Positions 2 to 46,209 of a stretch of 51,077 nt of DNA are shown one piece after another. Position 1 is the first letter of the stretch. Every line of letters starts with the position of its first letter. A program made the translations under genes and the position numbers. The notes under the pieces are model-generated. The model was not told the DNA's origin and did no database searches. It worked only from the letters and a program-made list of their open reading frames with translations. Source of the stretch: a virus; IMG/VR virus record IMGVR_UViG_3300011116_000989, positions 1-51,077 of that record. One strand, 5' to 3'.

Positions 2-871
2 AAAACAGCAAACTTAGAAGTAACTACAGTAATAGGCTGTCCAGTTATGTGTTCTTTTTGCCCACAAACAAGTTTAATTAAAAATTTTAAAGCCCAAAAC
101 TCTTTTGATTATAATAATAAAGTTTTAACTTTTGATAAATATCAAAAAATAATTGATAAAATACCAAATTGGGTTGATATACATTTTTCTGGTATGTCTG
201 AGCCTTACGCTTCTAAAGATTGTTCAAAAATGATTTCATATACTTTAGAAAAAGGTCATAAATTTTGTTTATATTCAACATTAGTGGGTGCAAATAAAGA
301 TGATATTGATTTATTAACCCAAATTAATTTTGATTCAAAGTATAAATTAGTTGTTCACCTCCCAGACGATGAACAAAATTTTAAAGCAAAAATAACAGAT
401 GTTTATATTGATAATTTAAAATATTTTTTAAACAATAGTAATATACAGCAAAAAATATTAGATGGATCAATTGATTTTATGTCAATGAGTAGAAGAGGTT
501 TCACAGATCCAGTTATTAAAGATTTAGTTCCCAAAAAATTATCTTCATTTATAGCTATTTCTAGAGCAGGAAATCTTTCAAATGATAATGAAAAGTTTGA
601 AGGCAAACAAATAACCAAAAGAAAGAATGGTAAAATTATTTGTAGTGTTGCTCCTTATTTAAACCACAATGTTCTATTGCCAAATGGAGATGTAGTGTTA
701 TGTTGTATGGATTATTCTGTACAACATAAAATAGGAAATTTATTAGAACAAAGCTATGAATCATTATTTAATAATGATAGTATTGCACAAATTTTCAAAC
801 AATTAAACGAAGATGATAATACAAACAAGTTGTTGTGTAGAAACTGTGAATTAGCAAAGGAACTTAAATGA
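2..871 (+). CDS. Radical SAM/SPASM-type enzyme, 5' end cut by window edge
   Basis: The reading frame is open to the left edge, so the start lies outside the window; 289 residues are visible. The cluster-binding motif CxxxCxxC is at visible residues 13, 17 and 20, just upstream of and overlapping the first in-frame ATG at 47, so that ATG cannot be the true start. The last ~80 residues look like a SPASM/twitch tail: a Cys in KIICSVAP, then NGDVVLCC, HKIGN and a final LCRNC, able to hold an auxiliary iron-sulfur cluster. Such enzymes generate a 5'-deoxyadenosyl radical to modify peptides, sugars or other small molecules; the substrate is not readable here. The stop overlaps the next start (ATGA), so it belongs to the glycan operon. 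The family call is firm; the role in glycan chemistry is inferred from neighbours. Confidence 0.8.
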   Translation, partial: KTANLEVTTVIGCPVMCSFCPQTSLIKNFKAQNSFDYNNKVLTFDKYQKIIDKIPNWVDIHFSGMSEPYASKDCSKMISYTLEKGHKFCLYSTLVGANKDDIDLLTQINFDSKYKLVVHLPDDEQNFKAKITDVYIDNLKYFLNNSNIQQKILDGSIDFMSMSRRGFTDPVIKDLVPKKLSSFIAISRAGNLSNDNEKFEGKQITKRKNGKIICSVAPYLNHNVLLPNGDVVLCCMDYSVQHKIGNLLEQSYESLFNNDSIAQIFKQLNEDDNTNKLLCRNCELAKELK

Positions 872-1752
872 AAATTAATAAAATTGTTTTTTCTTCGTCA
901 GAAGAGTTTAGCCCATTTTGGAACTTACAATCTTTCATATGGAAAGAAATTTTCAATATAGAACCAGTCTGTATTTTATGGGGAAAAGTTCAAAATACTA
1001 ATATGTCGGATAGATATGGCACTATTATAGAAAAAAAATATAATGAAAATTTAATAAAGTCTTTTCAATTAACCTGGAGTAAATTTCATCATACTATGTC
1101 TGAACCAGACACTACATGGATAATAGGTGATATGGATTTGTACCCATTACAAAAATCACTTTTCACTAATGTAATTAAAGATATTGATGATGATTTTTAT
1201 ACTCATTTAGCATCAAATGTAGTAACTAATCAAAAATATGAGCTAAAAGGCGGATACTTGCCAGCTTATTTTCATGTTGCAAAAGGAAAAACCTTTGAAA
1301 AAGCTTTATCATTAAATGAAGGTACTTTTGAAGAACAAATTCATAATATTATTAATGATGGTAGATTTACTTATAAAAATGAAGTAAATTTAGAAACAGC
1401 AAAAAATATGTTTGGAGCTAATAGTGGCAATAAAGTTTTAATTGATGAAAATGAATATCAATATTGGTTAACAGATGAACGTTATAGTAGTTATAAAATA
1501 TATGATAGTCACACGAAAGGTAACATAACTTTTAAAACAGCAATAGAGTATCAAATAATACCTCACAACTGCAATTCACAAACAAGAATTGATAGAAAAA
1601 GTTTTTATAATGGTACTTATAATAACTACAATGAATTGATGTTGATTAACAATCAAATTATTGATATTCATTGCCATAGACCATTTGATGAACAAAAAGA
1701 CTCGTTATATAAAATTATTGAAAAATGTTTTAAACAAGAAATAAAAATATGA
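868..1752 (+). CDS. Glycosyltransferase-like protein with DxD motif
   Basis: This 294-residue protein has no signal peptide or membrane segment. Residues 84-95 read TWIIGDMDLYPL, with the acidic triad D88-M-D90 after a hydrophobic strand. That is the usual look of the metal and nucleotide-sugar binding DxD motif in GT-A fold glycosyltransferases. A His-rich IDIHCHRPF lies near the C-terminus. It is joined by ATGA overlaps to the radical SAM gene before it and the kinase-aldolase gene after it, so co-translation is likely. I do not recognise the exact family; the glycosyltransferase call rests on the DxD context and the surrounding sugar genes. It could instead be another nucleotide-sugar-binding protein. 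Confidence 0.45.
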   Translation: MKINKIVFSSSEEFSPFWNLQSFIWKEIFNIEPVCILWGKVQNTNMSDRYGTIIEKKYNENLIKSFQLTWSKFHHTMSEPDTTWIIGDMDLYPLQKSLFTNVIKDIDDDFYTHLASNVVTNQKYELKGGYLPAYFHVAKGKTFEKALSLNEGTFEEQIHNIINDGRFTYKNEVNLETAKNMFGANSGNKVLIDENEYQYWLTDERYSSYKIYDSHTKGNITFKTAIEYQIIPHNCNSQTRIDRKSFYNGTYNNYNELMLINNQIIDIHCHRPFDEQKDSLYKIIEKCFKQEIKI

Positions 1753-3095
1753 ATTTTTTAATTAATATTGCAGGACCATCGGGTGTTGGTAAAACAACTA
1801 TGGCTAACATGATTATGTCAGTAAATGAGTTTGATTCATCTGTTATTATTAGCGGTGACGATTCGCATAAATGGCCTAGAGGGCATATTAATTGGGAAAA
1901 ATACACTCACTTAAATCCAAAAGCTAATAATCTTGAAAAAGAATATACACAATTATTAGAATTAAAAAATAACAAACAGATATTTAGAAGTCATTATAAT
2001 CATACTAATGGCATGTTTGACCAAGAAACTTTAATTAATCCAAAAAAAAATATTATATATGAAGGTCTTCATGCTCTTTACAATGAAGAAGTTAGAAATA
2101 TTTCTGATTTAAAAATTTATATTGATACAGATGAAGAATTAAAAATTGCTTGGAAAATAAAAAGAGATCTTAACAAAAGAGGATATTCTGAAGAACAAAT
2201 TCTTGAAACCATTAAACGTCGAATGGAAGATGAAAAAGAATACATTTTACCACAAAAATTATATGCTGATGTTGTAGTTAAGTTTACTTTTGATGAATCA
2301 GAAGGAGTTAATTTTGAATATAATTGTATAAATAAAAAATTTATTAATTTATTTGAAAAAATTAAAAATTTTTATGAGTTAAAAAAACAATTTATAAAAG
2401 TATGCAAACTTTTAAGTGAAGAACAAGATTTAATACAAAATAAAGGCGGCAATGTTTCTGTAAAATATGATAATTCTATGCTAATAACTTCTTCTGGTTT
2501 TCAACTAAGCAACGTTTCAGTTTTTGAAGGATTATGTGTCATAGAAAAAAATAATATAAATAATATTATTTTTAATTATGGACGACCTTCTATGGAATCT
2601 AGAATTCATTCACATTTAGATAAAGCAACAATACATACACATCCAAAACAACTTTTAACTATCTTATGTTCTAAAGAAAGTAAAAAAATAATAAAAAAAC
2701 TTTATAAAAATTATAATTTTGATTATATTAGCTATGCTTCACCTGGATACAGTTTATATAATCAAATAAAAAATAGCCATAGTAAAATTATTTTTTGTGA
2801 AAATCATGGTTTGTTTGTTTCTAGTAATGATTTATATGAATCTTATTTAATAACAAAACAAATTAATGAAATTGCAACAAAGTTTATAATAAACAACACA
2901 AACAAAATAGATCATCATGTTACAGACAAGCCATTATTTCCAGATAGTGTTATATTGACAGAACTTAATAAAAAATTAAATAATGATATTTTCAATAATA
3001 TATTGAATTGTAATTTAAATCCAAAATTTTTAAATAAAAAACAAATTAAAGATGTTTTAAATATGGAAGAAGAAAAATACAGGAGTTCTATATGA
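1749..3095 (+). CDS. Fusion of P-loop small-molecule kinase and class II aldolase
   Basis: The 448-residue protein joins two enzymes. Residues 1-200 start with a Walker A motif (GPSGVGKTT, residues 9-17) and resemble uridine kinase/phosphoribulokinase-type P-loop kinases that phosphorylate small hydroxyl compounds; NIIYEGLHAL fits a substrate-binding strand of that fold. Residues ~205-430 form a class II aldolase/adducin domain: KGGNVSVK, then PSMES with candidate catalytic E283, then HTHP with metal ligands H296 and H298, and NHGLF with H353. All usual metal ligands and the acid are present, so activity is plausible. Such aldolases cleave or form sugar phosphates (fuculose-phosphate aldolase type) or epimerise pentulose phosphates. 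The next gene is a nucleotidyltransferase, so the fusion probably makes a phosphorylated precursor for activation. The exact substrate is unknown. Confidence 0.75.
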   Translation: MNFLINIAGPSGVGKTTMANMIMSVNEFDSSVIISGDDSHKWPRGHINWEKYTHLNPKANNLEKEYTQLLELKNNKQIFRSHYNHTNGMFDQETLINPKKNIIYEGLHALYNEEVRNISDLKIYIDTDEELKIAWKIKRDLNKRGYSEEQILETIKRRMEDEKEYILPQKLYADVVVKFTFDESEGVNFEYNCINKKFINLFEKIKNFYELKKQFIKVCKLLSEEQDLIQNKGGNVSVKYDNSMLITSSGFQLSNVSVFEGLCVIEKNNINNIIFNYGRPSMESRIHSHLDKATIHTHPKQLLTILCSKESKKIIKKLYKNYNFDYISYASPGYSLYNQIKNSHSKIIFCENHGLFVSSNDLYESYLITKQINEIATKFIINNTNKIDHHVTDKPLFPDSVILTELNKKLNNDIFNNILNCNLNPKFLNKKQIKDVLNMEEEKYRSSI

Positions 3096-3919
3096 AAGTA
3101 ATAATTCCTATGGCTGGTACTGGTAACAGATTTGTAGAAAAGGGATACCAAGATCCTAAACCATTAATAAAGATAAACAACAAAAGAATAATAGAATATA
3201 TATTAGATCTTTTTTCTGAAGAAGATGAAATAGTTTTCATTTGTAACGATGTACACCTTAACACAACCAATATGAGGAGTGTTTTATCATCGTTAAGACC
3301 AGATAGTAAGATTGTTTCTATACCACAACACAAGAAAGGCCCAGTATTTACAGTAAAGCCTTATTTTGATTTAATAAAGGATGATGAACAAGTTTTAATT
3401 TGTTATTGTGATAATCCTTTTATTTGGAACAGAGATGAATTTATTAATTATGTAAATGACAAAAATTATGATGGCTGTATATTAACACATTCTGGTATGC
3501 ATCCCCACACTCTTAATTCTACAAAAATGGCTTTTTTAAAAGTAAAAAATGATATTGTTTTAGAAATAAAAGAAAAGGAATGCTATACTGATAATCCTTT
3601 GCAAGAACATGCTTCAACTGGTGCTTATTATTTTAGAAGAGGAGATCAGATGAAAAAATATTTTAATCAACTTATGGAACAAGATATAAATTATAATGGT
3701 GAGTATTATGTCACATTAGTATATAATTTGCTTATAAAAGACTCATTAAAAGTTGGTTTTTTTGATACAAAATTTGTTACAGTTTTTGGCACACCAGAAG
3801 AAGTTAAAAGTTTTGAATCTTGGAATGTTATTTTGAATTCTGGTCAAGTTAAAAATGAGCAACAATTAATTGAATGTTACAGATATTGGAAAGCTTATCA
3901 TGAAAACAATATACGTTGA
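3092..3919 (+). CDS. Sugar (or polyol) phosphate nucleotidyltransferase
   Basis: The 275-residue protein begins with the nucleotide-binding loop of NTP-transferase sugar nucleotidyltransferases: IPMAGTGNRF at residues 5-14, followed by DPKPLIKINNKRIIEY, the standard phosphate-binding lysine region. A Asp in LICYCDNPF near residue 113 matches the metal-binding Asp after the central strand. Its length fits GlmU/RmlA-like catalytic domains without an added hexapeptide domain. It overlaps the kinase-aldolase by ATGA and runs 20 bases into the HAD gene. The order of kinase-aldolase, nucleotidyltransferase and phosphatase suggests a pathway ending in an NDP-activated small sugar or polyol. Neither the nucleotide nor the sugar can be read from the sequence. 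Confidence 0.8.
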   Translation: MKVIIPMAGTGNRFVEKGYQDPKPLIKINNKRIIEYILDLFSEEDEIVFICNDVHLNTTNMRSVLSSLRPDSKIVSIPQHKKGPVFTVKPYFDLIKDDEQVLICYCDNPFIWNRDEFINYVNDKNYDGCILTHSGMHPHTLNSTKMAFLKVKNDIVLEIKEKECYTDNPLQEHASTGAYYFRRGDQMKKYFNQLMEQDINYNGEYYVTLVYNLLIKDSLKVGFFDTKFVTVFGTPEEVKSFESWNVILNSGQVKNEQQLIECYRYWKAYHENNIR

Positions 3920-4214
3920 TATTGACGAAACAATATGCTTTTACGAAACTGAAATACCACTAGATGGTAGTAAAGATTATACTAAAGCAATTCCAAACAA
4001 AGAAAACATTAATAAAATAAATAAATTATTTGATAATGGTAATGTGATTGTATATTGGACCGCAAGAGGAAGTCGAAGTAAGATTGATTGGTATGATTTT
4101 ACAAAAAATCAATTAAATGAATGGGGTGCAAAATATACATATTTAAAATGTGATAAACCATATTATGATTTATTTATTGAAGATAGAAGTATTAAAATTG
4201 AGGAGCTTGAATGA
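3900..4214 (+). CDS. Small HAD-superfamily phosphatase-like protein
   Basis: The 104-residue protein starts MKTIYVDIDETIC. D7 and D9 form the HAD DxD nucleophile and acid, followed by T11. YWTARGSR provides the motif II Thr, and a Lys lies in the KCDKPYYDLF stretch before the IEDRS Asp cluster (motifs III/IV). It is close to small capsule-locus HAD proteins, which lack a cap domain. I chose the ATG at 3900 because residues upstream of it belong to the end of the preceding gene and the HAD motif begins here; the two genes overlap by 20 bases. The likely role is dephosphorylation of a sugar phosphate intermediate in the glycan island. Confidence 0.7.
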   Translation: MKTIYVDIDETICFYETEIPLDGSKDYTKAIPNKENINKINKLFDNGNVIVYWTARGSRSKIDWYDFTKNQLNEWGAKYTYLKCDKPYYDLFIEDRSIKIEELE

Positions 4215-4675
4215 AAATAATTTCTCATAGAGGAAACTTAAATGGTATAGATGAGCAAAGAGAAAATAATCCAATTTTTATAGATGAATGTATTCAATTT
4301 GGATTTGATGTTGAAATAGACTTAAGAGTAAAAAATAAAACACTTTATTTGGGACACGATTATGCACAATACCCTATTTCTATTGAATGGCTATTAGAAA
4401 GAAAACAAAACTTATGGATTCATATAAAAGAATATGAAGCACTAAAAAGTATACTTAAATTTAAAAAAGAATTGAACTTTTTTTGTCACGAATCAGATAA
4501 ATATACTTTATTAAGTAATGGTCTTGTATGGTGTCATGATTTAGAAAATATTATGGATGAAAATTGTATAATTCCTTTGTTATCAATAGAACAAATTAGA
4601 AACTATGACCAAAAAGATTTTTTTGGTGTTTGTACGGATTATGTTTATGATTGCAAAAATAAATTTAAAAAATAG
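4211..4675 (+). CDS. GDPD-like (glycerophosphodiester phosphodiesterase fold) protein
   Basis: The 154-residue protein starts with ISHRGN, the HRG signature of glycerophosphodiester phosphodiesterases. It continues with VEIDLRV (the E-x-D metal ligands) and LGHDYAQ (the second catalytic His). That gives the main metal and catalytic residues, but the protein is shorter than the ~240-residue bacterial enzymes. It therefore looks like the compact GDPD-like form that I recall from polysaccharide loci and phage genomes. It starts inside the stop of the HAD gene (ATGA). It may remove or transfer a phosphodiester-linked substituent on a glycan; that is inference from position. The fold call is fairly safe, the substrate is unknown. 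Confidence 0.65.
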   Translation: MKIISHRGNLNGIDEQRENNPIFIDECIQFGFDVEIDLRVKNKTLYLGHDYAQYPISIEWLLERKQNLWIHIKEYEALKSILKFKKELNFFCHESDKYTLLSNGLVWCHDLENIMDENCIIPLLSIEQIRNYDQKDFFGVCTDYVYDCKNKFKK

Positions 4676-4687
4676 AGTTAACATAAC

Positions 4688-5605
4688 ATGATTTTAGTAA
4701 CTGGCGGATCTGGCATGATAGGAAATGCCTTAAAACATTTAATACCAAATGCATTTTTTGTATCATCAGAAAATTGTGATTTAAAAAATGTTAATGACAC
4801 AAAATATATGTTTAAACATTTAAAACCAAAAAAAGTAATTCACTTAGCAGCAAAAGTTGGAGGCGTAAAAGCCAACTCAGAATATCTAGGAGAATTTTAT
4901 ACAGATAATATACTTATAAACACAAATGTATTACATTACTCTATGGTATACAAAGTTGAGAAAGTTTTATCCTTACTTAGCACTTGTGTATACCCAGATA
5001 AAGTTAGTTATCCTTTAACAGAAGATCAAATACATAATGGTCCACCACACGAATCAAACTATGCTTATGCTTATGCTAAGAGGATGATTGATATACAATC
5101 AAGAGCGTATAGAAAACAATATGGCTGTAATTTTATAACAGTAGTACCAAACAATTTATTTGGTGAACATGACAATTTTGATTTAAATAATTCTCATGTT
5201 ATACCTGCTATAATTAGAAAAATGTACGATGCTAAAGATAAAAATGAAGATGTAATTTTATGGGGTGATGGTTCTCCATTAAGAGAATTTACTTATTCAA
5301 AAGATTTAGCAAAAATTTTATTATTTCTTATTGATTCATATAATGATGAAATACCAATAAATGTTGGTAATACAAATCAGTATAGTATTAAAAATATTGC
5401 AGAATTAATTGCAAATAAAATTCAATTTAATGGAAAAATAATATGGGATACAACAAAACCAAATGGACAGTATAAAAAACCATCTGATAACTCAAGATTA
5501 ATTAATCTTGGTTTTAATAGTGATAGTTATACAAATATTGATACTGCCTTGACAAATGTATGTAATTGGTATACATTAAATTATCCAAATATTAGAGGTA
5601 TTTAA
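4688..5605 (+). CDS. fcl: GDP-L-fucose synthase (GDP-4-keto-6-deoxymannose epimerase-reductase)
   Basis: This 305-residue short-chain dehydrogenase has the Rossmann loop VTGGSGMIG near residue 4 and the HLAAKVGGV segment typical of Fcl/WcaG. LLSTCVYP carries S98 and C100, equivalent to the catalytic Ser and Cys of GDP-fucose synthases. The Y127-x3-K131 pair (YAYAK) follows, then NNLFGEHDNFD. Length matches the family. The enzyme epimerises GDP-4-keto-6-deoxymannose at C3 and C5 and reduces it with NADPH to GDP-L-fucose. Its substrate is made by the next gene, which starts on its stop codon (TAATG), so the two-step pathway is complete here. A 12-base gap precedes it; no clear Shine-Dalgarno sequence was seen. 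Confidence 0.88.
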   Translation: MILVTGGSGMIGNALKHLIPNAFFVSSENCDLKNVNDTKYMFKHLKPKKVIHLAAKVGGVKANSEYLGEFYTDNILINTNVLHYSMVYKVEKVLSLLSTCVYPDKVSYPLTEDQIHNGPPHESNYAYAYAKRMIDIQSRAYRKQYGCNFITVVPNNLFGEHDNFDLNNSHVIPAIIRKMYDAKDKNEDVILWGDGSPLREFTYSKDLAKILLFLIDSYNDEIPINVGNTNQYSIKNIAELIANKIQFNGKIIWDTTKPNGQYKKPSDNSRLINLGFNSDSYTNIDTALTNVCNWYTLNYPNIRGI

Positions 5606-6585
5606 TGAAAACAGCCTTTATTACAGGCGTAACAGGTCAAGATGGCTCATATTTAGCAGAATTGTTATTATCTAAAGGTTATAAAGTAATTGGCTTAAAA
5701 AGAAGAACATCACTTTTGTGTACAGATAGAATAGATAAAATTTATAATCATAATAACTTTGTATTAGAATACTTTGAATTAGATGACACATCTTCTATGT
5801 ATAGGTTACTTTCAAAATATAAACCAGATGAAATATATAATTTAGCTGCCCAATCTCATGTAAGAGTATCTTTTGATATTCCACAAAGTACAGTAAACAC
5901 GATAGTAATGGGTACATTAAACTTGGTAGAAGCCGCCAGAACAATCTGCCCAAATGTAAGATTTTATCAAGCATCTTCGTCAGAAATGTATGGTGATAAT
6001 CCATTTTATCCATACAATGAAGACAGCAAATTTACTCCCGCTTCTCCTTATGCGAATGCCAAAGTTTTTGCTCACAATTTAATGAGAAATTATAGAATAT
6101 CTTATAATATGTTTTGTTGTTCTGGAATTCTTTTTAATCACGAATCGCCAAGAAGAGGAGAAACTTTTGTTACAAGAAAAATCACAATGGCAGCAGCAAG
6201 AATTAAACTTGGTTTACAAGATAAACTTTATTTAGGTAATCTTGATGCTGTAAGGGATTGGGGTTTTGCTGGTGATTATGTTGAAGCTATGTGGTTAATG
6301 TTACAACAAGAAAAACCAGACGATTATGTAATATCAACAGGAAAGTGTTATTCTGTTAAAGAATTTCTAAATCTAGTATTTGATATTGCTGAATTAAATG
6401 TTTCAAAACATGTTGAAATAGATCAAAGACTTTATAGACCACATGAAGTTCCATATTTAGTTGGAGATTCTACTAAAGCAAAAAATATTTTAAATTGGAC
6501 ACCAAAAACTAGTTTAAAAGATTTAGCCAGAATGATGTATGAAGAGGATTATAAAAAATATCATGATTTTAGTAACAGGACATAA
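5605..6585 (+). CDS. gmd: GDP-mannose 4,6-dehydratase
   Basis: The 326-residue protein opens with FITGVTGQDGSYLAE, the extended Rossmann loop peculiar to GDP-mannose dehydratases. KRRTS follows, then the SSSEMYG catalytic segment, Y149-x3-K153 (YANAK) and NHESPRRGETFV, a highly characteristic Gmd motif. DAVRDWGFAGDYVEAMW and a late RPHEVPYLVGD are also diagnostic. Length is slightly shorter than the ~370-residue E. coli enzyme. It removes water from GDP-mannose to give GDP-4-keto-6-deoxymannose, the substrate of the preceding gene. It starts on the TAATG of that gene and its end overlaps the next epimerase by 23 bases. GDP-mannose itself would have to come from the host. Confidence 0.92.
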   Translation: MKTAFITGVTGQDGSYLAELLLSKGYKVIGLKRRTSLLCTDRIDKIYNHNNFVLEYFELDDTSSMYRLLSKYKPDEIYNLAAQSHVRVSFDIPQSTVNTIVMGTLNLVEAARTICPNVRFYQASSSEMYGDNPFYPYNEDSKFTPASPYANAKVFAHNLMRNYRISYNMFCCSGILFNHESPRRGETFVTRKITMAAARIKLGLQDKLYLGNLDAVRDWGFAGDYVEAMWLMLQQEKPDDYVISTGKCYSVKEFLNLVFDIAELNVSKHVEIDQRLYRPHEVPYLVGDSTKAKNILNWTPKTSLKDLARMMYEEDYKKYHDFSNRT

Positions 6586-7393
6586 AGGTTATATAGGTAA
6601 TAAGTTATATAATAAACTTATTCAATTAGGGTACGAAGTATTAGGCTTAGATTTAAAAGAAGGAAATGATATTTTAGATTGCTTACCTAAAAATAAAAAT
6701 TTTGATTATGTTTTTCACTTAGCAGCATTACCAAGTGTAGAATATTCTGTATTAAATCCAAGTTATACATTAAAGCATAATGTGTTGGCAACTTCTAAAT
6801 TATTAGAATGGGCAAAAGATGCAAAAGTGAAAAGAGTTATTTTTTCATCGTCTTCTGCCATTTATGGTGATGGAAATGGACCAAAATCACCATATGGTTT
6901 ACACAAATTAATGTGCGAAATGGAATGTAAGCTATACTCAGAGTTATTTAAATTAGATACCGTATGTTTAAGGTATTTTAATTTATATTCACAAGATCAA
7001 AAATATGGTGGAGCATATTCAACTGCAATTTCTGCTTGGATGGAAATGATTAAGCTTAATAAGCCATTACGTATTGATGGAGATGGTTTACAAACCAGAG
7101 ACTTTATTCATGTTGATGATGTGATTAGTGCAAATATTCAATGTATGAATTATGATGGTAAATTTAATGGAAAAGGTATGGACGTTGGTAGTGGAGAAGC
7201 TGTTTCTCTTAATTATGTAAAAGATTTTATCAATACATACAACAATGTGGAGTGGGTGAATTACCCAGAAAGATTAGGTGATGTTAAACATACAAAATCA
7301 AATATAACAGAAATGTTAAAGATTGGTTGGAAACCTAAAGTGAACATTGATGATGGTCTTGCTTTGTGTTTTAAAAGAGATAAAAATGAATAA
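6563..7393 (+). CDS. NAD-dependent sugar epimerase/dehydratase
   Basis: The 276-residue extended SDR protein starts MILVTGHKGYIGNKL, a GxxGxxG loop at residues 6-12. It then has HLAALPSVEYSV, the SSSSAIYGDG catalytic Ser/Thr segment, Y111-x3-K115 (YGLHK), and RYFNLYS and TRDFIHVDDV, all typical of UDP-glucose/GlcNAc 4-epimerase-type enzymes. It is somewhat short for the family (~310-340). The ATG at 6563 directly precedes the Rossmann strand, so the overlap with gmd is real. A third nucleotide-sugar enzyme after Gmd/Fcl implies either a second sugar or further modification. The exact substrate (UDP-, GDP- or other) cannot be decided. Confidence 0.8.
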   Translation: MILVTGHKGYIGNKLYNKLIQLGYEVLGLDLKEGNDILDCLPKNKNFDYVFHLAALPSVEYSVLNPSYTLKHNVLATSKLLEWAKDAKVKRVIFSSSSAIYGDGNGPKSPYGLHKLMCEMECKLYSELFKLDTVCLRYFNLYSQDQKYGGAYSTAISAWMEMIKLNKPLRIDGDGLQTRDFIHVDDVISANIQCMNYDGKFNGKGMDVGSGEAVSLNYVKDFINTYNNVEWVNYPERLGDVKHTKSNITEMLKIGWKPKVNIDDGLALCFKRDKNE

Positions 7394-8183
7394 TCTTGTT
7401 AATCTCTTTGATGAAACAAAAATATTTATTTATGAAAACTGTAGATGTTGTGGAAACATAGATTTTATAAGTAAAAGTTTAAAACTAAATAAATGTTGGG
7501 AACCAAATATAACTTTTGTTATTTTAAATTTATTAAAAAATAAAAATAATAATATTTTTTTTGATATTGGATGTAATATTGGATATTATAGTTTATTATC
7601 AACAAAATATTGTGAAAAAATTTATGCATTTGATGCAAATATAAAAAATATTAATTTATTACAAAAGTCAATTACAATAAACAATATAAACAATATTATA
7701 CCGACAGTCTGTGCTATTACTGATGATGAAAATAAATTGTTTAAAACAGGCACATTACACGAACATAATGTTGGGTCGCTACAGGTGGAACAAGTTTATA
7801 CACCTAACCATTCAAATATTAAATCTCTAAAGTTAGATAATTTTATTAACACAAACAATATTGATAATATTGATATATTGAAAATTGATATTGAAGGGTC
7901 TGAATTGGATTGTTTAAAAGGTCTTGATCAAACATTAAATACAAATATTATTAAAAATATAATTATTGAAGTGACTCCATTGTGGAATGTGCAAATTGCT
8001 AAAAATATTTTAAATTATTTAAAACTAAAAAATTATATTTTATTTGACATTGGATTAAATGAAGTAGGTACTTATAATGACATTAAAATACAAAATTTAT
8101 TTAATAATGAAATAAATAACATAGATAATTTTGTTATTAATATTAATATACAAACCAACATATTAGCTAAAAAAATAATATGA
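7386..8183 (+). CDS. FkbM-family methyltransferase
   Basis: The 265-residue protein has the SAM-binding motif I FFDIGCNIGYYSLL, an acidic end of strand 2 in YAFDANI, and ILKIDIEGSELDCLKG, the hallmark (KxDxEG) of FkbM methyltransferases. FkbM proteins O-methylate sugars or other hydroxyl groups and are frequent in glycan islands. The start at 7386 is chosen because it overlaps the previous stop by 8 bases and fits the domain. The N-terminus carries an unusual CxCC cluster at residues 19, 21 and 22; a twin CxCC pair occurs two genes downstream. The likely role is capping or decorating the sugar built by this island. Confidence 0.82.
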   Translation: MNNLVNLFDETKIFIYENCRCCGNIDFISKSLKLNKCWEPNITFVILNLLKNKNNNIFFDIGCNIGYYSLLSTKYCEKIYAFDANIKNINLLQKSITINNINNIIPTVCAITDDENKLFKTGTLHEHNVGSLQVEQVYTPNHSNIKSLKLDNFINTNNIDNIDILKIDIEGSELDCLKGLDQTLNTNIIKNIIIEVTPLWNVQIAKNILNYLKLKNYILFDIGLNEVGTYNDIKIQNLFNNEINNIDNFVININIQTNILAKKII

Positions 8184-8857
8184 AATTTGCAATTTTAATC
8201 AATGGTCATGTTAGACATTCATTAGAACATAATAATCTTTTAAAAATTATTGAAGAAATAAGAAAAAAAGGTAATTGTGATCTATATGGAGTTATTTCTA
8301 ATAAAAAAGAACATTCAACAAAAACTTGGTATAATACCGATGAACAATTAAAGAATGAAACAATAACATATGATTTAATTAACAATTTTATTAAATTTGA
8401 AAAATTACACATTTATGAAGAAATTAAATACAACGATAATGAAATAAACAATTTATGGGGTAAATCACCAGTTTCTTATATAGCTATTAAAAATTTTTAT
8501 ACAAATTTACAAAAATGTATAAATATGATAGAAAATAATTATGATATATTTTTTAAATTAAGATTTGATTATTATAAATTTAATTATGCAAACTATACTG
8601 ATCACATCATTGATGTAATAAGAAATACTGATTTTAATAATTACAATAAATTAACTGCTGTAAAAGTAAAAAATGCAAGAGGTGAAGATAGTTTCTTTTT
8701 TTCATATCAAAAAGATTTTATTAAAGTTATTTATTATATAAATAATAATTTTGATTACTTAAATACTTACGCCAAAAATGCACATTTTTATTTTATGCCA
8801 GAAGATTTAATTAAATATTCTTGTGCAACACAACAAATATTGTTTGAGGATAAATAA
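8180..8857 (+). CDS. Putative glycan-synthesis protein, possible WavE-like glycosyltransferase
   Basis: The 225-residue protein begins with a hydrophobic strand (FAILINGHVRH). In the middle it contains FFKLRFDYYKF, similar to the lysine/arginine-Arg-x-Asp strand of WavE/DUF-type LPS glycosyltransferases. EDSFFFSYQKDF follows, resembling the strand after the catalytic core in the same proteins. No membrane segment is seen. It overlaps its upstream neighbour by ATGA and shares a TAATG with the next glycosyltransferase. The assignment is a pattern match by eye and weak; it could be any GT-A-like protein. Base composition is even more AT-rich than the tail genes, as in the rest of the island. Confidence 0.35.
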   Translation: MKFAILINGHVRHSLEHNNLLKIIEEIRKKGNCDLYGVISNKKEHSTKTWYNTDEQLKNETITYDLINNFIKFEKLHIYEEIKYNDNEINNLWGKSPVSYIAIKNFYTNLQKCINMIENNYDIFFKLRFDYYKFNYANYTDHIIDVIRNTDFNNYNKLTAVKVKNARGEDSFFFSYQKDFIKVIYYINNNFDYLNTYAKNAHFYFMPEDLIKYSCATQQILFEDK

Positions 8858-9783
8858 TGATATCAATTGGAATTTTAACATACAATTCTCCATTAACTTT
8901 AAAAAATACTTTAGAATCTTACAAAGTTAATGGATTGTTGGATTATACAGACGATATTAAGTGTCTTATACAACCATCTAACAAATCTAATGAAGAAAAT
9001 AAAATTTGTGAATATTATGGTATACAAACAATCATAGAAAAAACCAATACTATGATGGCTGGCGGAATAAAAAAGTTAGTAGAAAAATCAAAATATGATT
9101 ATTTTCTATTTTTAGAATCTGACTTTAGGTTATATAAAAATAAAGATATAACAAACATAGTTTTAAATTTTGGTTTAAATTTATTACAACAAGAAGATAA
9201 GTTTGATGTAGTAAGGTTACGCAGCTTAAAAAATCCTGGTCACCCTATTCATTGGAATTTACAAAAACAAAATGGCATATTATATAATGAAAATACAGAA
9301 TTATATTTATGTACACATTATCTTGAAAATCCGCACCTTACACATCCAGAATATATAAAAAAAATTTCAACAAATCCTATAGTTTATGAGATAAAATCAA
9401 AAAATTGCGTTTACACTAATAATCCAAATATAACATCAAAAAAGTTTTATTTTGACAATATCTTTCCTCACATTAAAGACGGTTCTCATTTGGAGCCAGA
9501 AATATTTAGTTTTTGGAAACAAAATAGTTTCAAAATTGCAATAACATCTGGTTTATTTACACATGCAAGAATAGATGGACACGACGGAAAAAGTTGTTAT
9601 TGTTGTGAAAGCAAATTTGGAGGTAGGTCAGACAATATAAATTGTGTTTGTTGTACAGTACCATATAAATCATATGAATTTGACAAATCACAAATTTGTG
9701 ATACATTAAATGATAAAGTAGATGAAAATTATTTAAATAATATTTATAACAATTTACAATTTAGTTATTATTCTAACAAATAG
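8857..9783 (+). CDS. Family-2-like glycosyltransferase with twin CxCC cluster
   Basis: The 308-residue protein starts MISIGILTYNSPLTLKNTLES, the nucleotide-binding strand of GT2-type glycosyltransferases. YDYFLFLESDFRLY at about residues 80-95 supplies the acidic DxD-like ESD motif. Residues 247-266 carry a pair of identical cysteine clusters, C247-x-CC and C263-x-CC, separated by 12 residues, which could bind zinc or form disulfides. It ends the glycan island; the next gene starts 11 bases later with a clear AGGAG ribosome site. The transferase role is well supported by the N-terminus; donor and acceptor are unknown. The cysteine cluster is not a standard part of GT2 enzymes. Confidence 0.65.
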   Translation: MISIGILTYNSPLTLKNTLESYKVNGLLDYTDDIKCLIQPSNKSNEENKICEYYGIQTIIEKTNTMMAGGIKKLVEKSKYDYFLFLESDFRLYKNKDITNIVLNFGLNLLQQEDKFDVVRLRSLKNPGHPIHWNLQKQNGILYNENTELYLCTHYLENPHLTHPEYIKKISTNPIVYEIKSKNCVYTNNPNITSKKFYFDNIFPHIKDGSHLEPEIFSFWKQNSFKIAITSGLFTHARIDGHDGKSCYCCESKFGGRSDNINCVCCTVPYKSYEFDKSQICDTLNDKVDENYLNNIYNNLQFSYYSNK

Positions 9784-22766: not shown

Positions 22767-24202
22767 TGGCAATAAAAAGATACTTTGCAAATGCTGATAC
22801 AACTATTACAAATGCTTTTAAAGCAAATTTAACCACTAGAGGTGTTAGTGGAAACATGGGCCAATCAGACATACTAGAAATTTTTAGTATCTATGGTCAA
22901 GCTAATCCTTCATCTTCAGAATTATCAAGAGTTTTGGTTCAATTTCCAATAAACGATTTAATAACAGATAGAAGTAGTGGTTTACTACCAGCATCTGGTT
23001 CAGTATCGTGGTTTTTAAAATTGTATAATGCAAAGCACTCAAGTACAATACCAAAAGATTTTACTTTAACAATTTCAGCAGTTTCTCGTTCTTGGGATGA
23101 AGGATATGGTCTTGATATGGAGGAGTATAGCGATTTTGGCTACGCAAATTGGAATTCTGCTGCTTCATCCTCTGATGCTGGTATAACTAACTGGACTTCT
23201 GCTGGTGGTGATTACCATACAACACCAACATCGTCACAATTCTTTAAAGGTACTGAAGATCTTGTTGTTGATGTTTCCAGCATCGTAGAACAATGGATTG
23301 GAGGTACAAAAACAAATTATGGTTTTGGTATTAAACTAACTTCTAGCCAAGAACAAGCTGCTCAATCGTATTATACTAAAAAGTTTTTTGCTAGAGGTAC
23401 AGAATTTTTCTTTAAACGTCCAACATTAGAAGCTAGATGGAATTCAGTACGTCGTGACAATAGAGGTTACTTTTTTGCAAGTAGCTCATTAGCCTCCGCA
23501 ACAGATAATTTAAATACAATTTATTTGTATAATGTTGTGAGAGGTAGATTAGCCAACATACCAGCTATTGGAACTGGAAACATATATGTTAGAATTTATG
23601 ATGATCCATCTGGTAGCAATACAATAACTGCAACACCAAACAATCCTGTTACTGGTGGTTGGGTTTCTACTGGTATTTATTCTGCATCATTTGCTTTAAA
23701 TACAACTGCATCAGAAGTATTTGATCGTTGGTTTAACTCAACACTTACAACTTGTTTTCATACTGGTTCAATAGATGTTTATGATCTAACATCACAAGAC
23801 TACAATCCAACTAATCGTTATGTTGTTTCTTGCACAAATCTTAAACCAATTTATTACTCTGAGGAACAAGCAAGATTTAGATTCTTTGTTCGCAAGAAAG
23901 ATTGGCAACCCACTATTTATACTGTAGCGACTAATTTTATTCCATCGGAGATTATAGAAAGCGCATCGTATAAAGTAGTAAGAATAGCAGACAACCTTGA
24001 AGTAATACCATACGGAACAGGTTCTTTGATGCATACAGGTCTTTCATATGATGTTTCTGGAAGTTATTTTGATTTAGATATGAATACATTAGAAACAGAT
24101 TATTCATACCAAATTAAATTAACATTTTATGATGGTGTAACAAATAGTTGGAAAGAACAGCCAGATACATTTAAATTTAGAGTAGAAAAGAATGAGCCTT
24201 AA
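22766..24202 (+). CDS. DNRLRE-domain-like virion protein
   Basis: The 478-residue protein starts with FANADTTITNAF and LSRVLVQFPINDL. It has SWFLKLYNAK and AVSRSWDEGYGLDMEEYSD, the order of strands and the W-D/E-G motif of DNRLRE-type beta-sandwich domains (residues ~1-230) known in surface carbohydrate-binding proteins. The rest is beta-rich and ends FKFRVEKNEP. It lies between the gp6-like and giant LamG genes; a similar protein in this place is familiar to me from marine phage contigs. It probably decorates the baseplate or helps in glycan binding. The start shares the gp6 stop and the end overlaps the next gene by 11 bases. Confidence 0.5.
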   Translation: MAIKRYFANADTTITNAFKANLTTRGVSGNMGQSDILEIFSIYGQANPSSSELSRVLVQFPINDLITDRSSGLLPASGSVSWFLKLYNAKHSSTIPKDFTLTISAVSRSWDEGYGLDMEEYSDFGYANWNSAASSSDAGITNWTSAGGDYHTTPTSSQFFKGTEDLVVDVSSIVEQWIGGTKTNYGFGIKLTSSQEQAAQSYYTKKFFARGTEFFFKRPTLEARWNSVRRDNRGYFFASSSLASATDNLNTIYLYNVVRGRLANIPAIGTGNIYVRIYDDPSGSNTITATPNNPVTGGWVSTGIYSASFALNTTASEVFDRWFNSTLTTCFHTGSIDVYDLTSQDYNPTNRYVVSCTNLKPIYYSEEQARFRFFVRKKDWQPTIYTVATNFIPSEIIESASYKVVRIADNLEVIPYGTGSLMHTGLSYDVSGSYFDLDMNTLETDYSYQIKLTFYDGVTNSWKEQPDTFKFRVEKNEP

Positions 24203-27200
24203 AGACCTATTTCAAGTAAAAAAAGTATTACCACCAGTTTCTAACGAACAAATAACTGAAGAAATAGAATCAGTTGAGTTGTTAGATTCTTACGAAATAG
24301 AAAAAAACAGAATTCAATTTGCAGTAAATTATGCTACTGCATCTAACTTTGCTGTTTTTGGTTCTGCTAAAAAATACTATCAAGATACAATTAAAAGAAT
24401 TTATGAACAGTATCCTTATGATGGATCTAAAAAAGAAAAATTAGATTGGTATAATTCCTCTTCTTTATTAGATGTTTGGTTTTATGAAAATGCATACCCA
24501 AGAACAACTGGTTATGGAACATTTTCTCCATCTGGTTGGTCTACTCAATTATCATCTATTTCTGGCTATGGCGAACCAACAACTAAAGAATACGTTGTTA
24601 TTAAGTCTGGCCCAAACAAAAGCACAACTGCAACTTCATTAAAAGATGCTTTTAACGATTTAAGTAATCAAAGTCAAAAAGCTAACATTTATAACGCATC
24701 AGATAATAGAACGTCAAATTTAAAATTTGATTTAAGCGGCAGCGGCGTTACGTTAGAATTTTGGTTAAAGAAAAATTCATTTATTACATCTAGTACACAA
24801 AAGGAAGTAATTTTTGATTTGTGGAACGGCGTTGCATCTTCAAGTGCAAACTATGGACGTTTAACATTAGAGCTTTCTGGTAATAATGTGTCTCCATTTT
24901 ATCTTACTGCTCAATCTGGTACTGCTGGTTTTTTTCAACAAAACATAGGTACTTCAACAACAACATCATCAATTGCTTCTGGTTTATGGAACCATTATGC
25001 TGTTTCGTTAGCAAATTCAGCAAGTTCTGTTAATGTTCAATTTTATGTAAACGGCACACTTAATTCGTCTTACGCATTAGGAACATCAATAAACAATGTA
25101 ACAGGCGGATTAGTGGCAAATCTTGGTGCTTTAAGAACTGCTCCGTCTGGTGTTTCTGGTGTTGGTTTAGGATGGGGTAAGCTTTCTGGTTCTATTGATG
25201 AATTTAGATACTGGAAATCAGAAAGAACAGATAGAGAAATAGGTAGAAATTGGTGGACATACGTTGGTGGTGGAACCAATACCGATGATGCAAATACAGA
25301 TTTAGGTGTTTATTATAAATTTAATGAAGGTATAACAACTACATCTTCAATTGATTCTATAGTTTTAGATTATTCTGGTAGAGTATCAAACGGCACTTGG
25401 GTAGGCTATTCTTCTGCGTCAAGAAATACAGGCTCAGCAATTGACGAGTTTACATTAAAAGAATTATCGTTAGAAGAACCAGATCCTATTATTTATTCCA
25501 CACATCCAGACGTTGTTTTGACTCTTGAAGAGTATGAAACAGTTGGTGACAATCACGATAGAGAAAATCCTAATAGTCTTTATTATTCGTTTCCAAATTG
25601 GATAATAGATGAAGATGAAGAAGGAGAACTATTAAATGTTTCCCAAATTGCAGCATCTTATCTTGATAGTTTGTATTTACAAATAAAATACTTCACAACA
25701 CTAAAAGATCATTATACTAACATACAAATTGATGATAAACCTTATCCATTTTCACAAGTATTGTTGGAATCAACTGGTTTAATTGCACCAAATTTATTTG
25801 TTGATGCAAAATTAGTTGAAGAAGTTCTTTCTAGAGATGATGAAAGACAATACGAAGATAAATTAAATGAAGTTAAAAACATAATTTATCAAAACATTTA
25901 TTCTAACATAACAAACATTTTTAAATCAAAAGGTACTGAAAAGTCTTTTAGAAATCTTATTCGTTGTTTTGGTATTGATGATAGTTTAGTAAAATTAAAC
26001 ATTTATTCTAACAACGATTCTTATCAAGTACGAAACAATACATACAATACAACAGTAAAGAAAAAATCAGTAAACTTTAATGATGTTGACAGATTTAATT
26101 CTAGTATTTATCAATTTTATGATAATACAAATGCAAATTCTTTGTCATACTTATCTGGCTCAAGTGTTTACAATTACTTGCCAATAACAGCAGAGGCAGA
26201 GATTGTATTCCCTTACAAGTTTAATCAAACAAATGAAAATTATTTCTTTACACCATTTACAACAACTTCAATTTTTGGTGCTCATGGTGCAACTTCAACT
26301 AATACTGACTTAACTTGGGCAAGCCCAGATTACTTTAATTTTCAAGTTTATGCTGTTAAAACAGAGATAGAATCAAAAGATGTTTACTTTGCATTAAGTT
26401 CATCTTATTTTGGTGTAACTTTAACATCCTCAATTTATTTCAATACGTATAATAATGAGAAATGGAACTTTGCTGTAAGAATTAAGCCAAACGCATTTGA
26501 TGCAGATTTAGTATCTGGTAGTGACTCTTGTAACTATCAACTAGAGTTTTATGGTGTTAACGGAGATGGTGATTCTGTAAAAAATGAATTTTTATTAACA
26601 TCAAGTTTAACTAATACTATTGCTAAAAATGCATTATCTCAAAATAAAAGATTTTATTTAGGAGCAGAACGTACTAATTTTACAGGATCAGTTATAAAAC
26701 AAACAGACATTAAAACTTTAGGATTAAGAGTTTGGTCTAACTATTTGAATAATGATGTGATTAAAACACATGCAGCAGATCCTTATAATTATGGCATCGA
26801 TAATGCATTCCAAAACAGTACTTTAACAGTATTTGATGGTGTATCTATTGCAAAAACAAAAACTTTATTACTAGATTGGGACTTTAATTTAATAACTGGT
26901 TCAAATGCTGGTGGCGGGATTCCAACAGTATCAGATGCATACTTTATTGTTCAAGATTTAACTTCTGGTTCAGTTTCAGATACAACATACAATACTGAAT
27001 TTAATACTTTAGTAAAGTACCAGTACACAGGTAAAGGTGATTTCTTTTTACCAAATAAAACAGATGTTGTTGATACTCAGTATTTATTCACTTCTCGCTT
27101 GACACAGTTTGAAGACATTAAAAATTCAAATCTTATTGAAGTATTAAATTCACAAGACGAAGAATCATTAACAAGGCAAACAAGACCAATAACTTATTTC

Positions 27201-30200
27201 TTTAGTTTTGAAAAAAGTATGTATCAAACAATAAGCGAAGAAATGCTAAAAATGTTTAGTAGCATACTTGACTTTAACAATCTTGTTGGTCAACCTGTCA
27301 ATAAATACAGAAAAGACTATAAATCACTTGGTAAATTAAGACAACTATTTTTTGAAAAAGTCCAAAACGAACCAGACTTAGATAAGTATCTTGATTTTTA
27401 TAAGTGGATAGATTCAGCAATAGGCAAATTTTTATTACAACTTACACCAGCATCAGCAGATACTAGTGAAGGTTTATTAAATGTAATAGAAAGTCATGCT
27501 CTTGAAAGAAATAAAGTACAATACAAATTTCCAACAGCAGAATTTAAAATACCAGTATTAGAAGCTGGTGCTGTGTCTATCAATAAACACCTTTACAATT
27601 GGCGTTTTGGTCATAGACCGCTTTCTAATAATGAAGACGACAATTGTTTTTATTGGAATGAAAGAGCAGAAAGAACAGTATTACCAATCTCTTCTAACAA
27701 CTCTGGTGTTAATAGCAGCAGAAACTTCATTCTATCTGCTTCTCTTCAAGTTCTTAATCGTTCATTTACAACAACATACAAATTTGACGTTAATCAATCT
27801 AAACAGATAAAAGGTGGTGTTAACTTTGAATCAAATAAAAACATAGAATTTGCAAAAACTGCATTAACTCCACATGGTCCATTAGATTCAGATAGTGTTA
27901 TAAGTGTTCCAGCAAACTATCTTATTGCTTTAGTTAAAAATACATCATCATTACTAGTTGATTGTAATGATACAATAAACCCAAATTCTAAAGTAAAGTA
28001 TTATCTAGATACAGTACAAGGTAGAGATTATGTATCTTCATCGCTTGGATACGGTGAAATACTAAATAGTAAAATTGCATTACCTATAAACTTGGTTAGT
28101 GGAAACATTAATACTGGTTATCAAACACAAGTTGCACAAGAATTTATGCCTGGTGTTGTAATCACAAACATTCACAACGATGTTTATGGTGCCATGAATG
28201 AAATACCAGCACAAGGACCATTTACAAATACTTGGGTTGGCGGTAAACAATCTCGCCACGTTCAATTAAATACAGGTGCAGATAATTACTTATCAAGACC
28301 AGAAGCATGGAAAATAACACTTGGAACTTTATTAACTGCTTCATACCAAACAGCAATTGGTTTTGTTGGCGCAGATTACCCTTACCCAGAGGGAAATCCA
28401 TACGAACCATCTTATCCAGTAGTTGCACACAAAAGAGCAACTTATTTTAGAGAAGAAACAGCAAAAAGACCAGTTAATACAAGAAACATTCAAACTACTA
28501 CAGGCTCTGTAGTACTTGGAAATTATCAAAATACTTATGAAATACTAAGTTCGTTTGGTTCTACAAATAACAATAGAGAATTAGTAGATGCTGTTAACCC
28601 AACCAACAATACAGAGCTTTATGGTATTGTTAGAACTGATGTAACAGATGGAAGAGTAGATTTTACTTTACCAACAAGACAAAGATCACAAACAATTGTT
28701 AAAAATTTATTTTCTGCTCCTGGTGATTATAGAACAAATTCAAGAGGTTATCTAAACAGGTACGCTGAAGAATTATCTCCTTATAATTCTTTGCCATTCA
28801 GAAACAAACAAATAATTGGTGATGGTTCAAGAAACGCAGATGTATTAACCACAGATTCTGTACAGTATCCAGAAATTGTTTCTGGTTCAAAATTAGAATT
28901 AAACAATCTTTTAACTATACCAAGTAGTTTTGGCGGTTATGTTTCTGGATCTACAACAGTTGCATCTTTCCACAAAGTCAATAGAAATCGTATCTTTACA
29001 ACACAAAATACATTTAATTATGATAATGGTTTTGTGTCACATCCAATACCACAAAAAGATTCTGGTTACTTATGGATTACATCATCATTAAGTGGAACTG
29101 CTGTAGACAATAATCTTGCGTTTTTTGGAAATTTCAATAGTGACATTACACTTCCAACTGGTTCCACTTCTTATGAACCAACATACTACTTTGTTTCTGC
29201 AAGTGAAATTGGAAGTTATTACGATACTCTTGGATTAACCAGAAAATTCCCAGAAAGTGTCACAGATGCTTCATTAGGTAATAGAAATCAATTTATACCA
29301 ATTGATTTTGTTGGTTTAAATACACTTATTTATGAAACTAGTTCATACACAACTTTAGGTGAAACAACAAATGATTATCAAACTTTGGTTAACATGAGTG
29401 TTGTTGGCACAGTTGATGTAATGCAAAAACCATACATTTTTTCTGCTTTAATGCAACACAGAAATGGTCCATATGGATTTTCATCATTTAAACAAGTAAG
29501 AACTGGTGAACATAGAGTAGTTAGAAATCTTGTTAGAGATAACTATACTTCTTTGTTAGTAGAAAACTCAGATGGTACACAAACATTTATAATTCAAAAA
29601 GAACCAAACGTTTACTTTAACACACCTTTTACAGCAAAAATTAGAGACACTTTAACAAATCAAATTTTAACGTTTAAGTATTCTTATGAAAACTTATTAC
29701 AAACTTTTGAACAACCAGATTTATTTAACAACTTGTCTATTACTAATAATCAAACATTTTATGAAAAGAAAATTGCTTTCTTATTAAATAATTCAAGATA
29801 CAAACTTGTTAATACAAAAGTTGGATTTTCACTTTATCCAAGAAGAAGAAATAAATCTTTATTAGAAAATAACAAGAGAATAAATTATGTATTTACAAGT
29901 TGGAGAGATTCTAGAGAAAATAGAAACATTTCTAATTCTATTTCTCAATTTAATTACACAGTAAATAATAATACTATTTTGATACCAAAACAAAGTATTT
30001 GGCCTATGGATGCTTCCGCTTCAATAGGTGATGGTGGTGTATTGCAAAATAGCTATTCGTTAATACATAATGGTTTAACTTCTAGTATAACCGCTTCAGT
30101 CCTTTATAACTACAAGCACACTTTATTGACTTTAGATAGTTATAAATCTAAATCACCAATTGATGCAGTATTGCAATTTTCACAATCAAGTGTAAACCCT

Positions 30201-43050: not shown

Positions 43051-43083
43051 TGATTTCTGTAGTACATTGACTTGGGAGACAGT

Positions 43084-46000: not shown

Positions 46001-46209
46001 ATCTGCCTAAGTCTAATTTGTTTATTTTAGATGAACCTGGAACTGCATTAGATAGTGAGAACCTTGAAGGCTTTATCAGAATACTTGATATGATTAAAAA
46101 TTATTATGATACTGTTCTTCTTATTTCCCATATGGATGCTTTAAAAGATGTAGCAGATCAAATAATTACAATAGATAATGTAAATGGATTTGCCAAGATT
46201 GTTATTTAA
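43084..46209 (+). CDS. Single-chain Mre11-Rad50 (gp47-gp46 / SbcD-SbcC) fusion
   Basis: The 1,041-residue protein joins both subunits. The first ~340 residues are the Mre11/SbcD nuclease: HIADTH (D8, H10), HCGDIAH, LGNHDG, and GHDYAFLGDIHK with YPGSTLQQNHGE, all metal and catalytic motifs. From ~365 it is Rad50/SbcC: Walker A FGKNYSGKSS (398-406), a long coiled coil, a hook C713-x6-C720 (PCGTQFPTCKF), the ABC signature GSGAEKS (952 on), Walker B FILDEP (D983, E984), and an H-loop ISHMD. I chose ATG 43084 over a TTG upstream because GGGAG precedes it at proper spacing. The enzyme should process DNA ends for recombination-dependent replication. In T4 these are two genes. Confidence 0.9.
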   Translation: MKFAHIADTHIKNLKYHTEYKTVFSKMYDTLKEEKVDYIIHCGDIAHTKTQISPEFVEMAADFFKNLSAIAPTYIILGNHDGNLTNDSRQDALTPIVNALNLNNLYLLKKSGETKLKDNFVLNVLSVFDEEGWVKPSDPNAVNIALYHGSVNGVKTDTGFVLEKADHDVSIFVGHDYAFLGDIHKTNQTLDTDGRIRYPGSTLQQNHGETNDKGFLIWDIQDKLSFDCKHVLIENPNPFITVELEENGGLPNGLTIPLNARLRLLSRTNLPAEIMKNVGDVVKEKWKPESVSFLSKNVARSKELKESVDGIEKEDLRNVKVQEQLIEEFLVNYKVPTDVLQKVFEINKKFNTEVESKEEVARNINWKVESLEWDNLFNYGTDNKINFKNLQGIVGIFGKNYSGKSSVIDSILYALYNTTSKNEKKASNVINTAKKNAVVNLKLSVDDSEYVIARSCEKVIKKDGSEEAKTTLNFIGDGVSINGDTRVQTDANIKKMFGTIDDFMLTSMSSQLDSLSFIREGSTKRKEILGRFLDLEIFDAKNKLAKEESASIKALIKKLEVTDYDTQILKTQDEIEILNTTTNLLKDLVSDSNNTLKQLKTEIDSLDGQLKSINVESIDISKTIERREYLLTTSVKASTAKADKVLELENKTAEFDKITDFLNNFDIVGLNKKKEEIKDYQSKLSAITQDLQLNNKETKYLKDKIKLLGEVPCGTQFPTCKFIKDAIDASNKITNQENKTNNLADEHDKVGEALALLSPDVVEKQLNKYQMVVNKQTTVEKEILQLKIDVEKFNTIISNINKEMNLVKEKIEQYKKNEELFKQVESLTQDRNDKQIEWNQLDKETKANNEQLLQCYIKYGSLVEKIAALNVTKQELENYRNEFAAYDYFMKATSSNGISYEIIKKKLPIINEEIATILSNIVDFQIYFEDDGSKLNIMIQHPNSEPRPIEMGSGAEKSIAAMAIRLSMLQVSNLPKSNLFILDEPGTALDSENLEGFIRILDMIKNYYDTVLLISHMDALKDVADQIITIDNVNGFAKIVI

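Follow-up and report, generated by a model that had tools for sequence, protein, structure and literature searches.

The first kilobases of this viral sequence raise the question of what a virus makes with a single polypeptide that joins a P-loop kinase to a class II aldolase. The window, namely the whole virus record of 51,077 bases to which all positions below refer, had been interpreted earlier in a sequence-only reading, which proposed that the fusion, with an adjacent nucleotidyltransferase and HAD phosphatase, may form a compact route to an uncharacterised NDP-activated sugar or polyol, and which held the fusion to be unfamiliar among described phage proteins. We find the fusion to be a real and conserved phage enzyme, probably of single origin, that belongs to a sugar-activation module which recurs among viruses and has its equivalent in bacteria. 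This module probably builds an as yet undescribed activated sugar. In the literature searched, outside which most subscription papers lay, neither a published description of the fusion or the module nor an already characterised equivalent was found.

Domain organisation of the kinase-aldolase fusion

The fusion gene (1749..3095, plus strand) encodes 448 aa from ATG to stop and shares a 4-base overlap with each flanking gene (868-1752 and 3092-3919), arranged as in an operon. The protein comprises a PRK-type kinase (residues ~1-200), a linker helix (~196-224), a class II aldolase (~206-385) and a C-terminal helical tail carrying conserved P-D and E-K-Y-R motifs. Residues 4-178 matched Pfam PRK (PF00485; E 2.8e-42, 145.2 bits versus a cut-off of 22) and residues 214-376 matched Pfam Aldolase_II (PF00596; E 5.4e-16, 59.4 bits versus 22.2), and an AlphaFold2 model computed with 31 homologues as input (mean pLDDT 93.2, pTM 0.89) agreed with this assignment, confirming that one polypeptide holds both enzymes; profile searches of each half, the check set in advance, moved neither into another family. 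By VIA-align, the kinase half superposed on the cyanobacterial phosphoribulokinase 9qkp (Z 25.3, 204 residues aligned, rmsd 1.8) and residues 206-385 on the L-fuculose-1-P aldolase 2opi (Z 19.4, 176 residues, rmsd 2.5), Foldseek and VIA matches being taken as evidence on fold only. The best viral fold matches in BFVD were two giant-virus proteins of 26-27% identity, a class II aldolase and a uridine kinase (entries A0A2H4UUW4 of Bodo saltans virus and A0A2K9V825 of Bandra megavirus), hinting that a comparable kinase/aldolase pair may occur there.

The catalytic residues named by the sequence-only reading were at the right positions. The Walker A motif (residues 9-17, GPSGVGKTT) is encoded at 1773..1799 on the plus strand, and its G9, S11, G14, K15 and T17 are invariant in 31/31 sequences; the catalytic and metal-binding residues E283, H296, H298 and H353 (codon span 2595..2807, plus strand) are equally invariant (31/31) and align with E73, H92, H94 and H155 of FucA.

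With its Walker A and a score above the curated Pfam cut-off, the kinase half is a member of the PF00485 superfamily; this half matched the PDB profiles of phosphoribulokinases at E 1e-57 and those of uridine-cytidine kinases at 1e-23. It fell below the curated cut-offs of both PRK07429 (NCBIfam; 192.5 versus 236 bits) and udk TIGR00235 (95.6 versus 220.3 bits). The PRK motifs D-D-x-H...R, YNH, EGLH and K..RD...RGY/H are kept, and H40 is common to the kinase half and PRK-type proteins, whereas E. coli uridine kinase has no equivalent His. Uridine kinase identity was thus rejected by profile scores and motif alignment. Although the PRK cut-off was missed, the closeness to PRK over uridine kinase, together with H40, points to a sugar phosphate as the likely substrate.

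The aldolase half belongs to the class II aldolase/adducin family PF00596, with the His triad and the catalytic acid complete. At the position of this acid, all 31 viral sequences carry Glu, as do FucA and RhaD, while E. coli AraD has Asp in the alignment; within the family, Glu versus Asp at that column separates aldolase from L-ribulose-5-P 4-epimerase activity, so an AraD-type identity is disfavoured. The FucA-equivalent E/H/H/H residues are accompanied by conserved N, S and G positions, including those of the FucA phosphate site. Together with the FucA/RhaD-type Glu, these positions make aldol chemistry on a phosphorylated sugar the likelier predicted activity than epimerisation. Y329 was considered as the equivalent of FucA Tyr113 and rejected, the conserved Tyr aligning with FucA Tyr128. 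The aldolase half also scored below the FucA equivalog cut-offs (TIGR01086, 25.7 versus 400.25 bits; FucA_Meth, 49 versus 250).

Recurrence, conservation and origin of the fusion

A single-sequence query of the IMG/VR contigs retrieved 2 full-length relatives, and an alignment query retrieved 49 loci including those 2; about 45 ORFs carry the same kinase-aldolase fusion, these contigs being fragments and the pattern-based scans biasing the counts of loci. At the search depths used, neither 50,697 GenBank phage records nor 72,556 plasmids yielded the fusion, both sets giving kinase-only matches, and it was not seen in 395 Bacteroidia genomes. Hence the impression that the fusion is unfamiliar holds for the GenBank phage records searched, but the uniqueness that it implied does not, since environmental viruses commonly carry the fusion and this phage is no special case.

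The 30 non-redundant relatives share 36-47% identity with the window protein and come from many independent contigs. Invariant positions are found throughout, i.e. G9, K15, D37, H40, R44, Y83, H85, K136, R139, D140 and R144 in the kinase half, N235, S249, G250, S281, E283, H287, H296, H298, Y329 and H353 in the aldolase half, and E442 and R445 in the tail. For most informative pairs dN/dS was ~0.05-0.25 in the kinase half as in the aldolase half, and a single pair reached 0.50 in the latter; both halves are under purifying selection. The many independent contigs and the low dN/dS reject chance or an assembly or frameshift artefact as the source of the fusion; in the reverse case, a single additional base splits the fusion in one locus (L046), as comparison with the near-identical L034 shows.

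In a maximum-likelihood tree of the kinase domain, the viral sequences form one clade (100/100) adjoining bacterial kinases. Unfused viral kinases sit within this clade and are explained individually, two by contig ends (L048, L050), one by the frameshift in L046, and one by an apparent loss in L044, a virus that kept the kinase and has no detectable aldolase. Several fusion origins are therefore not needed; that the two genes fused once in viruses is the simplest interpretation and probably the correct one.

Partners of the fusion in a sugar locus

Immediately downstream lie the two genes that had been noticed before, and both are real. The nucleotidyltransferase (3092..3919, plus strand; 275 aa, NTP_transf_3 / GlmU-RmlA-like, PHROG 3980) is present in 44/49 fusion loci; it exceeded the cut-off of NTP_transf_3 (PF12804; 34.2 versus 27 bits), stayed below the cut-off of IspD (PF01128), and reached the equivalog cut-off of no named sugar (best 42.5 versus 292.1 bits). 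The small HAD-type hydrolase (3900..4214, plus strand; 104 aa, motif VDIDET) occurs in 27/49 loci, and its closest solved relative is 9iqw, a 'Capsule biosynthesis protein' (E 6e-16). A PHROG label of 'phosphoheptose isomerase' for this protein was dismissed, as it contradicts both the HAD motif and the best PDB match.

A fourth module gene, which the sequence-only reading did not include, encodes a mini phosphodiesterase with a GDPD-type active site (4211..4675, plus strand; 154 aa) and is as constant as the nucleotidyltransferase (44/49 loci), the loci without these two being mostly contigs that stop within the fusion. It had no Pfam match and matched the GDPD 3i10 by profile (E 1.5e-7), and its active-site residues (H6 R7 ... 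E35xD37 ... H49 D50, K73) are invariant in 28/28 sequences. The best Foldseek matches of its model (pLDDT 96.4) were mainly GDPDs, weak and much longer (1zcc, E 1.8e-3, TM 0.60 by query). A viral scan yielded at least 515 stretches related to it, some in loci that carry the kinase-aldolase and others in loci that lack it.

Upstream, the gene at 868..1752 (plus strand; 294 aa, with an invariant G-D-x-D-x-x-P-L) probably encodes a glycosyltransferase, although it had no Pfam or PHROG match. Roughly every second fusion locus has a member of its family, usually directly upstream of the fusion, and GDxD is invariant in 15/15. The locus starts with a SPASM-domain protein of radical SAM type (47-871, over cut-off) and continues beyond the module, all on the plus strand, with a GDP-L-fucose synthase-like SDR (4688..5605, an accessory NDP-sugar gene), GDP-mannose 4,6-dehydratase (gmd, 5605..6585, above the curated cut-off), an NAD-dependent sugar epimerase-like SDR (6539..7393), an FkbM-family methyltransferase (7386..8183) and a GT2-family glycosyltransferase (8857..9783). 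The stretch 8180-8857 weakly resembles a ~215-aa domain that precedes the kinase in other phages. T4-like baseplate and late-sigma-like genes follow downstream. Elsewhere in the window, the tail/baseplate region holds one ORF of 2,899 aa (24192-32891), and a single ORF at 43072-46209 combines an Mre11-like phosphoesterase with a Rad50-like ATPase, the homologues of gp47 and gp46 usually being separate genes.

Separate kinase and aldolase genes in phages and bacteria

To avoid anchoring on the fusion itself, a viral scan was anchored on the phosphodiesterase, and its best 80 loci were counted; these were not de-duplicated, belong partly to the same contigs as the fusion scan, and are biased by the best-80 rule. 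Among them, the fusion was present in 19, a separate kinase and aldolase within a few kilobases in 14, the aldolase alone in 12, the kinase alone in 2, and neither nearby in 33, and the nucleotidyltransferase was present in 73. In several phages with separate genes (loci L097, L104, L105, L107, L112, L114 and L125), PRK-type kinase ORFs of ~476-488 aa begin with the ~215-aa N-terminal domain, which in L104 gave a weak DUF7796 match. In the cyanophages S-SM2 and Bellamy, genes for a class II aldolase, a tandem nucleotidyltransferase, a HAD and a GDPD-like protein lie near one another, resembling the fusion module, but the aldolase is not fused, and no PRK-type kinase was found genome-wide in either.

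These separate-gene clusters, like the phosphodiesterase, are additions to the sequence-only reading, and they extend to bacteria. Azospirillum brasilense p5, Hirschia baltica pHbal01 and the E. coli plasmid p5-S1-CAM-01-A each hold a homologous kinase, aldolase, nucleotidyltransferase and GDPD-like gene in one cluster, along with HAD, GtrA, GT2 and membrane-protein/export genes. In contrast to the phage fusion, their kinase and aldolase are separate, the kinase making up the C-terminal end of a membrane protein of ~680 aa; the nucleotidyltransferase is in tandem, usually as one protein, and the HAD is of a different, larger type. A characterised member of the bacterial cluster was not found. 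Eudoraea and three other Bacteroidia carry the cluster rearranged or with parts missing (395 genomes of the class examined), and the E. coli plasmid version occurs in 2/5,426 genomes. That plasmid (33 kb, IncR) is essentially identical in E. coli isolates from human stool and bullfrog, with the module near an IS26 copy. Three further loci, on plasmids of Pseudomonas aeruginosa and Rhizobium (L077, L078, L079), hold a related cluster with a GDPD-like gene, nucleotidyltransferase domains and a HAD phosphatase, with no kinase-aldolase pair annotated; the Pseudomonas plasmids of this group also have WavE and GMC oxidoreductase genes in the cluster.

Co-clustering of the separate genes in distant lineages and their fusion elsewhere is strong evidence for one pathway, and kinase and aldolase very likely serve it together.

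Proposed pathway and alternatives

Our main reading, to which we give a probability of about 0.5, is that the fusion acts as a bifunctional enzyme in a phage glycan-precursor pathway. The scheme is built on domain identity, active-site residues, conservation, synteny and the separate-gene equivalents, from which we infer every reaction, their order, the substrates, the nucleotide and the acceptor. The aldolase half, with a divalent metal at H296/H298/H353 and E283 as acid/base, would make or remodel a ketose-phosphate skeleton; the PRK-type half would then phosphorylate a second hydroxyl of the sugar phosphate to give a bisphosphate, the fusion keeping the intermediate local between the two. 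Removal of one phosphate would fall to the neighbouring HAD hydrolase or to some other phosphatase, and the nucleotidyltransferase would join the remaining sugar phosphate to an NTP. Finally, nearby phage glycosyltransferases (in different viruses the GDxD gene, GT61 or GT2) would load the sugar onto a host or virion surface glycan, while the phosphodiesterase may cleave a phosphodiester intermediate or provide a phosphorylated precursor.

The scheme is favoured by the sugar-locus setting around the fusion (gmd, fcl-like, epimerase, FkbM, GT2), by the constancy of the nucleotidyltransferase and phosphodiesterase, and by the co-clustering of kinase and aldolase when unfused. Since the HAD is found in only 27/49 fusion loci and the bacterial one is of another, larger type, dephosphorylation is not tied to one protein; and since many phages keep the nucleotidyltransferase and phosphodiesterase without a kinase, as S-SM2 and Bellamy do, the kinase and aldolase may be suppliers to the pathway and not its defining steps. 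The module is best read, much as proposed before, as a compact route to an uncharacterised activated sugar, with the NDP activation and the product as predictions.

The main rival, which we consider rather unlikely, is activation away from the anomeric position, in which the NTP is coupled to a ketose or polyol in open-chain form through its terminal phosphate and the product is a phosphodiester-linked unit instead of a glycosyl donor. The fusion would make the ketose phosphate, the phosphodiesterase would supply or recycle a polyol phosphate, and kinase and aldolase would still belong to one path, on the model of CDP-6-fructose to CDP-6-glucitol, or of CDP-glycerol. There is a precedent, as a cytidylyltransferase of a capsule cluster turns fructose-6-P into CDP-6-fructose (PMC10918830), and a GDPD-type enzyme as constant beside the fusion as the nucleotidyltransferase fits somewhat better here than in our scheme. 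However, the cytidylyltransferase of that precedent was assigned to PF01128, whereas the window protein is above the cut-off for PF12804 and below that for PF01128, and the GtrA, GT2 and membrane-protein genes of the bacterial cluster are typical of lipid-linked glycosyl donors.

Salvage or catabolism, by which kinase and aldolase would degrade a host sugar and so provide the infected cell with DHAP and an aldehyde, appears improbable. Pairs of a kinase and a class II aldolase are classical in sugar catabolism (the fucose, rhamnose and 5-deoxyribose routes), and the fold of the aldolase half is near that of FucA and of a Bacillus aldolase that serves to dispose of radical-SAM by-products; but the kinases of those routes are, to our knowledge, not PRK-type, neither an isomerase nor a transporter was seen beside the fusion, and the near-constant linkage to the nucleotidyltransferase and phosphodiesterase, with glycosyltransferases nearby, speaks against it.

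Less probable still, the kinase substrate could be a sugar already attached to a glycan or lipid, or the product after its transfer, and not a free sugar phosphate, so that fusions to membrane or transferase-like domains would reflect coupling to glycosyl transfer. The bacterial kinase that ends a ~680-aa membrane protein and the ~215-aa domain ahead of the kinase in other phages (in one of them weakly matching DUF7796) agree with this; in the window family, however, the kinase is fused to an aldolase and its PRK-like site is conserved. That a uridine/cytidine kinase became joined incidentally to an unrelated enzyme, an aldolase or epimerase with which it shares no pathway, is barely credible, because PRK is far closer than uridine kinase and the two genes cluster without fusion in other phages and bacteria, even though PF00485 also covers uridine kinases and the L044 virus has a kinase without a detectable aldolase.

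Returning to the glycan-precursor scheme, we tentatively extend it to an undescribed route, common to phages and scattered bacteria, to an activated and possibly ketose-derived sugar, in which the aldolase would build the skeleton and the PRK-type kinase would ready it for nucleotidyl transfer, the phages having fused both once and the kinase having joined other domains elsewhere. An odd gene thereby becomes a testable pathway of a few soluble proteins, one of them predicted to be bifunctional, in many environmental phages. Its product would be a unit, new or unassigned, of surface glycans that are bacterial or modified by phages, and such glycans control how receptors are recognised and competing phages kept out. 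In the compact form found in phages the system should be easy to express and assay, and its assignment would also annotate a bacterial polysaccharide-type cluster.

Comparison with known systems

The heptose route proceeds by isomerisation, a kinase step to the bisphosphate, a phosphatase and a nucleotidyltransferase (PMC8204981), and the pathway proposed for the fusion follows the same step logic as this ADP-/GDP-heptose pathway (GmhA, HldE or HddA/HddC, GmhB). It differs in having a PRK-type kinase plus an aldolase and a phosphodiesterase, the last of which has no place in the heptose scheme and counts against our own; neither a GmhA-type SIS isomerase nor a heptose kinase was seen among the module genes in window 47-4675 (Pfam, NCBIfam).

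With cyanobacterial and plant phosphoribulokinases (6hzk, 6kev, 9qkp), the kinase half shares the fold, the Walker A and the motifs, but it is only ~200 aa long, the aldolase stands where PRK has its C-terminal part, and there is no sign of a Calvin cycle role. The aldolase half in turn shares its fold and the E/H/H/H residues with FucA and the aldolase part of RhaD/ADH-type proteins (PRK08324; 3m4r), with Z 19.4 and 19.2, respectively. Unlike these, to which it is 18-25% identical, it falls below every equivalog cut-off, adds the P-D/E-K-Y-R tail and is joined to a kinase.
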